DNA of 64,000 nucleotides from Blastococcus capsensis (GTDB lineage: Bacteria > Actinomycetota > Actinomycetes > Mycobacteriales > Geodermatophilaceae). Location: positions 62,001-126,000 of the forward strand of contig NZ_JASNNW010000015.1 in the NCBI RefSeq assembly GCF_030165005.1, read 5' to 3'. Shown here piece after piece: positions 50,310 through 60,973 of this stretch (the first letter of the stretch is position 1; every line of letters begins with the position of its first letter). The position numbers and the translations under genes are program-made. A model generated the notes under the pieces. The model was not told where the DNA came from, searched no databases, and saw only the letters and a program-made list of their open reading frames with translations.

Positions 50310-50364
50310 CGCTGTGCGCAGACGAGCAGGATCGCGGTGACGAACTGCTCATCTGCGCACAGCG
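50310..50364. repeat. Large inverted repeat between convergent genes
   Basis: Two 20-base arms (50310-50329 and 50345-50364) match at 19 positions and enclose a 15-base loop. It lies between the HDOD stop and the stop of an acyl-CoA dehydrogenase gene, so it probably ends transcription from both sides. No T tract. Confidence 0.65.
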
Positions 50365-58851: not shown

Positions 58852-59243
58852 GCGAGCTGCCCGACACCGACCAGGCCCGCCGCGAGGCAGGGATGCGCAC
58901 CCGCCGCGAGGTGCTCGGCGACGCGCACGTCGACCGCGCGGTCGCCGGCACCACCCCGTTCACCGCCGGCTTCCAGGACTTCATCACCCGGATCGCCTGG
59001 GGTGACGTGTGGCAGCGACCAGGGCTGTCCCGCCGCGACCGCAGCCTGCTGACCCTCGGCATCACCATCGCGCTGCGGCACTGGGACGAGTTCGCCCTGC
59101 ACGTGCGGGCCGCGGTGAACAACGGGCTGAGCGACGAGGAGATCGGCGAGGCGATCCAGCACGCCGCGGTCTACGCCGGTGTGCCCGCGGCCAACCACGC
59201 GTTCAAGGTGGCCGGCCCGATCCTCGCGGAACTCCGCGGCTGA
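58848..59243 (+). CDS. pcaC: 4-Carboxymuconolactone decarboxylase
   Basis: A 131-aa helical enzyme of the AhpD-like superfamily that decarboxylates the lactone made by PcaB. FQDFITRIAWGDVWQRPGL and the RDRSLLTLGITIALRHWDEF block are characteristic, and QHAAVYAGVPAANHAF completes the active site. The GTG start overlaps the pcaD stop by four bases. It is the last gene of the pcaHGBDC operon; a repeat element follows nine bases later. Confidence 0.93.
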   Translation: MSELPDTDQARREAGMRTRREVLGDAHVDRAVAGTTPFTAGFQDFITRIAWGDVWQRPGLSRRDRSLLTLGITIALRHWDEFALHVRAAVNNGLSDEEIGEAIQHAAVYAGVPAANHAFKVAGPILAELRG

Positions 59244-59250
59244 GCCCGTC

Positions 59251-59302
59251 GAGTGTCGGCCTGCTGTCTCTTCCCGGTGGAGGAGACGACAGCAGGCCGA
59301 CA
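59251..59302. repeat. 52-bp palindromic repeat, copy A
   Basis: Arms of 14 bases (TGTCGGCCTGCTGT at 59254-59267 with ACAGCAGGCCGACA at 59289-59302) match perfectly and hold a 21-base loop with TTCCCGGTGG. It starts seven bases after the pcaC stop. It is 48/52 identical and in the same orientation to copy B at 60246-60297; the two flank the nuclease-like gene. Confidence 0.85.
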
Positions 59303-59363
59303 GTCGGCGCAGCCCTGTGGACGACGAGCCGGGGATCTCGCCCGGATTCGGCAGGCTGCGGGG

Positions 59364-60242
59364 ATGCCTGTGGCCCCGCGCCGCCCCGCCGCGCTCCGCG
59401 GACGGGTGTTCCGCGGTTCCGCCGTGCTCGCCGCCGGGACGCTCTCGCCGGGTGAGCTCCGCGGTCCCGCCTGGCGCCGGCTCTTCCGGGACGTCTACGC
59501 CTGTGCTGACCTCCCCCTCACGCACGAGCTGCGGGTGCGGGCCGCGGCGCGCCTCCTCGTTCCGGGGGCGGTCGTCAGCGGAGCGAGCGCGGCCGTGTTG
59601 TGGGGGCTGCCCGTCGCTGAGCGGGACGACGCCGTCGAGCTCACCGTCCCACCCGGCTCGACGGTCTGCCGGGTGCCTGGCATCCGCGTCCGCCGGCGCC
59701 ATCTCGACCCCGCGCACGTCACGGTCCGGAACGGCACCGCGGTGATGACGGCCGATGCAACCGTCGTCGACCTGGCCCGCGCCGGGACGCTCGAGGACGC
59801 GGTGGTACTGATCGACCGCGCCGTGGACCTCGGCACGACGAGCTTGGCGTGGGTCCGCGACGTCGCCGAGACCACGACGGGGCGCGGCTGCCGGCAGGCC
59901 CGTACGGCGGCTCGGCTCGCCGACGGGCTGGCCGGGTCACCGCAGGAGACCCGGCTCCGACTCCTGCTGCACCGGTCGGAGCTGCCGCGGCCGGTCGCTC
60001 AGTACGAAGTCCGGGACGAGGCCGGTTTCGTGGCGCGGGTCGACTTCGCCTGGCCCGAGGCGAAGGTGGCCGTCGAGTACGAGGGGTTGTGGCACGGCGA
60101 GGCGCCGCAGCAGGTGATCGCTGATCGGCGTCGGCTCAACCGACTGACAGAGGCTGGTTGGACGGTGATGTTCGTGACCGCGGCCGACCTGCGCCGGCCT
60201 GCGGAGATCGTCGGCCGCATCGCGACGGCGCTGCGCCGATGA
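59364..60242 (+). CDS. AbiEi-like/DUF559 nuclease-like protein
   Basis: A 292-aa protein with two parts. The N-terminus (about residues 1-150: SGASAAVLWGLPV, VPGIRVRRRHLDP, ATVVDLARAG) resembles the AbiEi type IV antitoxin-like proteins common in actinobacteria. The C-terminus (about 200-292) has ARVDFAWPEAKVAVEYEG, with a D...E-x-K-like pattern of the VSR/DUF559 endonuclease fold. I do not know a proven function for this fusion. No partner toxin is visible. It sits in the pca cluster between repeats A and B and breaks up pcaC and pcaJI. The ATG at 59364 has only weak ribosome binding sequence. Confidence 0.75.
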   Translation: MPVAPRRPAALRGRVFRGSAVLAAGTLSPGELRGPAWRRLFRDVYACADLPLTHELRVRAAARLLVPGAVVSGASAAVLWGLPVAERDDAVELTVPPGSTVCRVPGIRVRRRHLDPAHVTVRNGTAVMTADATVVDLARAGTLEDAVVLIDRAVDLGTTSLAWVRDVAETTTGRGCRQARTAARLADGLAGSPQETRLRLLLHRSELPRPVAQYEVRDEAGFVARVDFAWPEAKVAVEYEGLWHGEAPQQVIADRRRLNRLTEAGWTVMFVTAADLRRPAEIVGRIATALRR

Positions 60243-60245
60243 ACT

Positions 60246-60297
60246 GAGTGTCGGCCTGCTGTGCTTTCCCGGTGGGGGAGACGACAGCAGGCCGACA
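60246..60297. repeat. 52-bp palindromic repeat, copy B
   Basis: Arms of 14 bases (60249-60262 with 60284-60297) match perfectly, with the same loop sequence as copy A apart from three changes near the left arm and one in the loop. It lies just after the stop of the nuclease-like gene and seven bases from the pcaJ stop. Confidence 0.85.
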
Positions 60298-60304
60298 CCC
60301 GAGC

Positions 60305-60973
60305 TCAGACGGTGGCGGGGAGCGGCATCTCCCGGACGTCGTCGGCGACCGTGAGCTGGGCACCGGTCGCGGCCACCACCTCGTCGGCGGTCACGCCGGG
60401 CGCGGTCTCCCGGAGCACCAGGCCGCCGGGGGTGACGTCGATGACGGCGAGATCGGTGATCACGCGGTCGACACAGGCCTTGCCGGTGAGCGGCAGGGTG
60501 CACTCCTCGACGATCTTCGGGGAGCCGTCGCGGGCGACGTGCTCCATCATGATGATCACCCGCCGGGCGCCGTGGACGAGATCCATCGCGCCGCCCATGC
60601 CGTTGACCATCTTGCCGGGGATCAGCCAGTTGGCGAGGTCGCCGCGGGGGTTGACCTGCATGGCGCCGAGGACGGCGACGTCGAGGTGCTTGCCCCGGAT
60701 CATCCCGAAGGACAGCCCCGAGTCGAAGAAGCTCGCCCCGGGCAGGACGGTGACCGTCTCCTTGCCGGCGTTGATCAGGTCGGGGTCCTCCTCGCCCTCG
60801 AACGGGTAGGGCCCCACGCCCAGGACCCCGTTCTCCGAGTGCAGGACGACGTGGATCCCCTCGGGGACGTAGTTCGGCACCAGCGTCGGCATCCCGATAC
60901 CGAGGTTGACGTACTGGCCGTCCTCCAGCTCGAGGGCCACCCGGGCGGCGAGCTGCTCGCGGTTCAGGGCCAT
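60305..60973 (-). CDS. pcaJ: 3-Oxoadipate CoA-transferase subunit B
   Basis: A 222-aa beta subunit of the CoA-transferase that activates 3-oxoadipate with succinyl-CoA. [19 protein letters not shown] and [16 protein letters not shown] are signatures; SENG contains the catalytic Glu. ATG at 60973, overlapping the pcaI stop by one base (TGATG). It converges with the pcaHGBDC operon. Homologous acetoacetate CoA-transferase subunits are alternatives, but the pca context favours PcaJ. Confidence 0.88.

Follow-up and report, generated by a model that had tools for sequence, protein, structure and literature searches.

The window, as the whole 64-kb stretch of DNA analysed here will be called, contains a nuclease-like gene placed between pcaC, whose stop codon ends at 59243, and the convergent pcaJ, whose stop codon lies at 60305 (Table 1). 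The identities of pcaC, pcaJ and pcaI were confirmed with NCBIfam models. Two direct repeats of 52 nt each (59251-59302 and 60246-60297) are identical at 48 of the 52 positions (92%); both form strong hairpins and an intact ORF lies between them, as an earlier note on this DNA had described. The left palindrome starts 6 nt past the pcaC stop codon, and the right one lies 5 nt past the stop codon of the nuclease gene and 6 nt from that of pcaJ. The ATG at 59364 is the likely start of the gene; an in-frame GTG at 59253 sits inside the left palindrome. Three hairpins in the window score 13 or more, all of them at least 15, and two of the three are the flanking palindromes. Twenty first-order Markov shuffles of the window gave a mean of 0.65 hairpins at score 13 and 0.05 at score 15. 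The third strong hairpin (50310-50364) has 20-bp arms, and no homolog of the nuclease gene was seen adjoining it; it could be a solo palindrome, that is one without a gene, of another class.

Table 1. Positions of the palindromes, the gene and the parts of its product in the window.
Feature	Position	Strand	Description
Left palindrome	59250..59306	.	Hairpin, 19-bp arms with 1 mismatch, 19-nt spacer
CTGTGGAC motif	59315..59322	+	Between left palindrome and ATG; TGTGGA core starts 48 nt 5' of ATG
292-aa nuclease gene	59364..60242	+	AbiEi-type domain and Vsr/EDxHD-fold nuclease; ORF intact
AbiEi-antitoxin-like part	59385..59924	+	Residues 8-187; 6y8q Z 11.9, rmsd 5.6 over 171
Vsr-like nuclease domain	59925..60239	+	Residues 188-292; structure match and invariant residues
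Right palindrome	60248..60298	.	Hairpin, 15-bp perfect arms, 21-nt spacer

The AlphaFold model of the protein (10 sequences, pLDDT 91.5), the fold comparisons and the profiles account for the whole chain with an AbiEi-type part and a Vsr-like nuclease, and no HUH (Y1) tyrosine transposase was found in it. Residues 8-187 match the structure of the AbiEi antitoxin 6y8q, and the C-terminal residues, about 188-292, align in VIA-align with 3hrl (Z 11.9, rmsd 2.1 over 88) and with the EDxHD homing endonuclease I-Bth0305I (3r3p; Z 11.6, rmsd 2.8 over 93), and they also match Vsr (1cw0; Z 9.8, rmsd 3.2 over 100). The resemblance to Vsr and to these EDxHD structures extends to the acidic positions of the active site. 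A Foldseek search of the PDB gave Rv2827c (1zel) as the sole match at E <0.001; 3r3p was at E 0.011. The DUF559 model of Pfam scores 19.6 bits, just below its cut-off of 20.6, and the AbiEi profile of PADLOC matches 30 of 32 homologs. The DUF559 score, the AbiEi profiles and the Vsr-like fold show that the initial guess of an AbiEi-like/DUF559 protein with a VSR-like nuclease was right. The catalytic residues S192, E195, Q213, D227 and E238 are invariant among 32 aligned homologs and 99-100% conserved among 112 proteins, and the protein looks like an active nuclease. The closest named relatives are from Blastococcus, Modestobacter and Trujillonella, those from Mycolicibacterium being more distant. 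The nuclease is 71-72% identical to the copies at the same site in two congeneric genomes (G017 and G018), whereas pcaJ is 91-93% identical; the nuclease thus diverges faster.

The architecture of homologous loci was surveyed at 128 places, of which 119 are from 23 congeneric genomes, the source genome (G000; 4.39 Mb in 51 contigs) included, and nine are named loci; they are a subset of the matches listed, and one is probably a duplicate, as L050 and L022 look like one strain. A hairpin is found close upstream of the gene at 86 loci, close downstream at 89 and on both sides at 69, the control rate being 29 of 317 outer windows of 490 nt. In a comparison that assumes no hairpin, the upstream region aligns with the downstream region of the same locus above the 99th percentile of cross-locus pairs at 73 of 126 loci; at the other 53 the two sides have no significant match. 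Outside the genus the two sides match at 18 of 28 loci, or at 16 of 25 when L219, L220 and L227, which have incomplete match coordinates, are left out, and the distant loci L223 and L226 have perfect arms of 22-25 bp at both ends. In the largest group of loci at one site, a matching palindrome pair is present in only 4 of 18. The 151 hairpins have a median total length of 56 bp, with arms of 20 and a spacer of 9. Among 66 pairs of flanking copies, 29 align better in direct orientation, 10 better when inverted and 27 within 3 points either way; the pair in the window is direct.

The source genome encodes nine further homologs (E 1e-3), most of which have their own hairpin pair of a different sequence. 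Homologs at E 1e-15 were found in 26 of 80 sampled actinomycetotal genomes and in 23 of 66 genera. The multicopy DUF222-HNH genes of the source genome served as a comparator: none of 12 loci, some of them cut by contig ends, has a hairpin pair, and the idea that such a pair is a feature of any multicopy nuclease-like gene was rejected. No description of an AbiEi/DUF559 nuclease paired with palindromes was found in the literature searched, bioRxiv and most subscription journals lying outside its scope.

With tblastn, the window protein matches eight plasmid records, all below 60% identity and all predicted to be non-mobilizable, and four weak phage records; for these reasons the gene is not regarded as phage or plasmid cargo. 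Several of the eight plasmid records look like pieces of chromosome. Six of them were inspected, and two have a palindrome pair, one has a downstream hairpin alone and three have none. One of the pairs, with CTGTGGATAAC upstream, is in the record of Arthrobacter sp. ERGS1:01. In Tsukamurella tyrosinosolvens (NZ_LR134464.1) a DUF559 gene with a perfect-arm palindrome pair is located between purC and purB. This gene adjoins purC, as the Blastococcus relatives do, and one site may have been used recurrently.

The hexamer TGTGGA or its complement occurs within 250 nt upstream of the start codon at 122 of the 128 loci, and the heptamer TGTGGAC or its complement at 105. The hexamer is present downstream at 2 of 128 loci and in the two outer flanks at 6 of 122 and 12 of 119. 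An unbiased count of 7-mers recovers the same TGTGGAC motif, which we take to resemble the actinobacterial DnaA box. Its distance to the start codon is nearly fixed within subfamilies, and at loci where a pair was found the median gap between it and the left palindrome's inner edge is 8 nt. In the window by itself the 8-mer CTGTGGAC is found three times against 3.2 expected, no more than by chance, and the case for the motif therefore rests on the family. The 12 DUF222-HNH loci contain seven occurrences of TGTGGA/TCCACA, none of them in the 250 nt preceding the estimated starts.

A gene and its two palindromes form a unit, in a large family in which every gene has a palindrome of its own. For comparison, loci with common flanks were placed into 19 site groups of at least two loci, some of them joined by one flank only. 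Fifteen groups have enough pairs, and in 14 of these the two flanking copies of a gene resemble each other more than the palindromes of orthologs do, a comparison biased toward similarity within the locus, since same-locus pairs were picked as the best hairpin match; in one group the orthologs' palindromes are as similar as the two copies of one locus. Palindrome similarity follows protein identity rather than genomic site. Among 59 loci, from one genome per species, the similarity is 6-9, with 8.8 as the highest value, when the proteins are less than 60% identical, and the within-locus mean is 30. At 60-70% protein identity the values are 15.3 for the same site and 16.7 for different sites, and at 70-80% they are 28.6 and 23.4. 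A Mantel test of palindrome similarity against protein identity gave 0 of 1000. The part of the protein that tracks the palindrome could not be separated by partial correlation (0.13 for the N-terminal and 0.11 for the C-terminal part). None of the 1617 different-site pairs reaches 80% protein identity, so no recent transposition is seen in data of one genome per species.

The unit is present, degraded or absent at corresponding sites of related genomes. The pcaC-pcaJ site is occupied in the source genome and in G017 and G018, contains a degenerate remnant of the gene in G012, and is a short junction with neither gene nor such palindromes in four congeners (G001, G010, G020 and G021). Empty sites, which the earlier note had proposed to look for, do exist. 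Among the 17 other congeneric genomes with a pcaJ at least 90% identical, the gene lies between pcaC and pcaJ in two; pcaC is 26-252 bp from pcaJ in five, one of which has the gene remnant; it is about 1-6 kb away with other sequence between in six; and it was not found in the 7.8-8.8 kb taken around pcaJ in four. The assumption that the two genes are normally close neighbours is thus correct only in part. A double palindrome (L173:710-762), in which CTTTCGGTACCGAA occurs two times, lies beside pcaJ in G013; the stretch yielded no nuclease homolog. Tandem palindromes of similar appearance are present at the L107 and L113 loci.

The purC-purS site, with gene names confirmed by models, is occupied in 11 of the 23 congeneric genomes. 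G008 retains a broken gene together with its motif and left palindrome. The site is empty in G020 (59 bp), and there is no homolog in G002 (242 bp) or G022 (1361 bp); in the other eight genomes purC was not found in the stretch examined. In G017 a hairpin similar to palindromes of another class precedes purS (L202:1386-1444), and the stretch examined showed no homologous gene. Homologs occupy the same genomic sites in many congeners, and this, together with the lack of closely similar proteins at different sites, speaks against the description of the unit as a mobile cassette.

Palindromes are also found away from the genes. A joint search of the source genome with the palindromes of eight of its paralogs gave at least 73 matches, with 40 of 151 candidates scored and both strands and the gene flanks counted. 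The palindrome of the paralog at purC-purS (L008 class) occupies 18 solo places in the source genome besides the flanks of its gene. All 18, as fetched, form a hairpin, as do all 37 solos of this class fetched in total (score at least 9). In this search five other paralog classes have one to three solos each in the source genome and two classes have none; one of ten solos fetched from other classes has no hairpin. None of the 37 L008-class solos has a TGTGGA core within 130 nt, and the motif therefore belongs to the gene and not to the repeat. The window's own palindrome is hardly dispersed, with one diverged solo in the source genome (C9:8231, 76% identity) and single relatives in three of 22 congeners (G017, G018 and G009). 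The strong evidence for dispersal comes from the L008 paralog, not from the window's gene.

Dispersed copies are commoner where the cognate gene is present, as tested for the L008 class. Matches to its palindrome were counted in the 23 genomes on both strands and with the gene flanks included, at most 40 candidates being scored per genome, and genes were classed by the purC-purS site and by the homologs fetched. Four genomes with the gene at purC-purS have 43, 35, 16 and 14 matches and the genome with the remnant has 19, a mean of 25 over the five. The mean is 6.2 in five genomes with a gene of a near class and 3.2 in the other 13, several of which carry a gene of another class at purC-purS; matches (2-9) occur also in genomes without an L008-class gene. 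The Mann-Whitney p for the excess is 0.0004 to 0.0017, with related genomes treated as independent. The pcaJ of G022 is nearer to that of the source genome than the pcaJ of G004 is (95% vs 92%); G022 has two matches and G004 has 35.

Many solos lie at orthologous places in two or more species, and are therefore old and often inherited. Fourteen solos of the source genome were looked for in G008, G022 and G004. In G008 the L298, L301 and L252 sites lack the palindrome or have it cut, and it is not recognisable at the L305 site in G022 and at the L290 site in G008 and G022; the remaining sites either have it or could be located by one flank only. One L015-class copy is common to the source genome, G022 and G004 and missing in G008, and another is cut in G008. 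No clean insertion with a target duplication was found at the solo sites compared, where the flanks are too diverged for duplications to be seen, and no shared flanking tetranucleotide of the GTAG type was noticed by eye among the solos inspected. At the L245 site a class-i palindrome is present in the source genome and G004, a class-iii one in G008 and a class-ii one in G022. The right flank is the same (88-93% identity) and the left flank was not found in G008 and G022. Palindromes at a kept site thus change class, either by overwriting or by drift together with the protein; as the left flank is missing in G008 and G022, the change at L245 possibly came about through rearrangement.

Several observations on individual solos may be recorded here. 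The flanks of a solo in G008 (L307, 231385) appear to be split between two solos of the source genome, L247 (C15:18454) and L251 (C39:43066), as if the genome had rearranged at the palindrome. One intergenic site of G022 (L373) has two hairpins about 280 bp apart (465-538 and 818-877), an L015-class palindrome and another that resembles the L012/L038 class. Two identical 63-nt L008-class hairpins lie 1.6 kb apart in G006 (C1:144080 and 145681; L266 and L281), with no nuclease homolog detected between them. A short GC-rich motif in the left flank of the solo L287 recurs widely in G004, G008 and G022, and in G022 it also forms a tandem array (C5:7891-8299) with 87-88-bp spacing; it represents another repeat family.

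On balance, the gene and its palindromes appear to be a unit of the REP/RAYT kind whose enzyme is unrelated. As the fold, the geometry and the co-variation suggest, the AbiEi-type domain would dimerise on the two inverted half-sites of the cognate palindrome. The Vsr-fold nuclease may then nick or cut the DNA at or beside the bound palindromes, and repair would place copies at further intergenic sites or in the place of older palindromes; movement of the whole unit would be rare. Binding at the left palindrome, beside the DnaA-box-like motif, would probably also control the expression of the gene. According to the account in PMC7319586, AbiEi operators consist of two 23-bp inverted repeats separated by 3 bp, or by 13 bp in Rv2827c, and thus measure 49-59 bp in total. 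The median palindrome of the family measures 56 bp, and binding by the AbiEi part is the simplest interpretation, one that would explain the co-variation. Three further features then point to a REP/RAYT-like cycle: the nuclease is conserved, a second palindrome lies 3' of the gene, and solos are in excess where the gene is present. Judged from the sequences, the protein probably binds its own palindrome and promotes its spread. The idea of the earlier note that a VSR-like nuclease might spread palindromes as RAYTs do agrees with the architecture, with a separate palindrome for each gene and with the L008 solos tied to their gene, but not with the slight dispersal of the palindrome in the window.

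In the RAYT/REP system, as outlined in PMC2817692, the rayt gene evolves fast and has flanking copies of the repeat with which it co-evolves, and the copy number is tied to the presence of the gene. So far as PMC2817692 and PMC8266576 describe RAYT/TnpA-REP, the present family resembles it in four respects: 1) the gene is flanked by two cognate palindromes, although not at every homolog; 2) palindrome and protein co-evolve and the gene diverges fast; 3) dispersed palindromes are commoner where the cognate gene is present, here in the L008 class; 4) the gene behaves more as a resident gene than as an active transposon. It differs in its enzyme, an AbiEi domain with a Vsr-fold nuclease in place of an HUH tyrosine transposase. 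Having no relation to RAYT, this enzyme falls outside that family, but it may work in a similar way. Compared with the REPs described there, the palindromes are longer (about 56 bp against 20-50 nt), have no common tetranucleotide that was noticed and are fewer (about 20 copies against 37-427 in Stenotrophomonas). Unlike in the REPtron as it is described, the flanking copies are often direct and not always inverted, and there is a DnaA-box-like motif at the left end. The present system is found in Actinomycetota, whereas the string 'actinobacter' is absent from the main texts of PMC2817692, PMC8266576 and PMC3733652. The CGTC-tagged REPs of PMC3733652 are likewise dispersed palindromes without a known RAYT, but in that account they have 8-9-bp stems, come from other phyla and have no reported transposase gene associated with them.

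The likeness to AbiEi antitoxins and Rv2827c, as presented in PMC7319586, lies in the fold of residues 8-187 and in the operator size, which fits the palindromes. In an AbiE type IV toxin-antitoxin system the partner is an AbiEii nucleotidyltransferase toxin, but no gene for it adjoins the window gene, whose neighbours are pcaC and pcaJ; the protein is instead fused to a nuclease, a palindrome is present also at the 3' end, and the palindromes of a paralog class are dispersed over the genome. From I-Bth0305I the window gene differs in being AbiEi-fused and palindrome-bounded and, so far as can be seen in the window, in lying outside any intron or intein.

The main rival to the REP/RAYT-like reading is a purely regulatory role, which is considered rather unlikely. 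The AbiEi domain would then be a repressor, the flanking palindromes its operators (perhaps with looping) and the solos other sites of a small regulon; site and protein would drift together because the sites are mostly local, without any mobility. AbiEi and Rv2827c do autoregulate through inverted repeats of similar size (in the systems treated in PMC7319586), the left palindrome lies near the start codon, and the L245 site, which keeps a palindrome while its class differs among species, fits co-evolving binding sites. A regulatory role alone does not account for a further copy 3' of the gene, for the conservation of the nuclease active site or for the joint absence of the gene and both palindromes at empty sites. 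That the hairpins are general bidirectional terminators, paired by accident, is scarcely credible: those in the window are strong and lie 3' of genes (pcaC on one side, the nuclease gene and pcaJ on the other), but the hairpin sequences are gene-specific and matched at both ends, for which reason the explanation was rejected, their similarity follows the protein, and hairpins are infrequent in the outer windows.

A conventional, slow transposon with the palindromes as its ends is improbable. The purC-purS sequence outside the unit, 80-136 bp in the seven of 11 occupied sites measured, is close to the length of the empty gap in G020, but the other gene-free junction, that in G002, is longer. 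The absence of different-site pairs of high identity among one genome per species argues against it, as do the syntenic sites common to many congeners, the lack of a transposase fold in the protein and of a clean target duplication at the solo sites compared, and the fact that the dispersed copies are palindromes without the gene. Very improbable, too, is a homing endonuclease gene that spreads into an empty allele and has palindromes as accessory or protective sites. The nuclease domain resembles I-Bth0305I, and the pca site has occupied, degenerate and empty states, as in a homing cycle; such a cycle predicts neither solo palindromes elsewhere nor the co-variation of palindrome and protein across sites.

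If the REP/RAYT-like reading is followed further, the family could represent a second, independently evolved REP-generating class, in which a long palindrome is recognised in double-stranded form by its own AbiEi-Vsr nuclease, which spreads it over the genome and replaces older classes at sites that already exist. This proposal is a tentative one. Such a class would occur widely among Actinomycetota, and a single genus would have many specificities. Small nuclease genes between two long palindromes that vary along with them are carried by many soil actinobacteria, and in at least one case relatives of the palindromes are found dispersed genome-wide. A nuclease family annotated only as DUF559 or AbiEi-like thereby provides a large testable set of pairs of protein and DNA palindrome, and a supply of sequence-specific DNA-binding nucleases, the target of each being evident from its flanks. 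The findings suggest that REP-like repeats have more than one origin and that the enzymes involved are unrelated.
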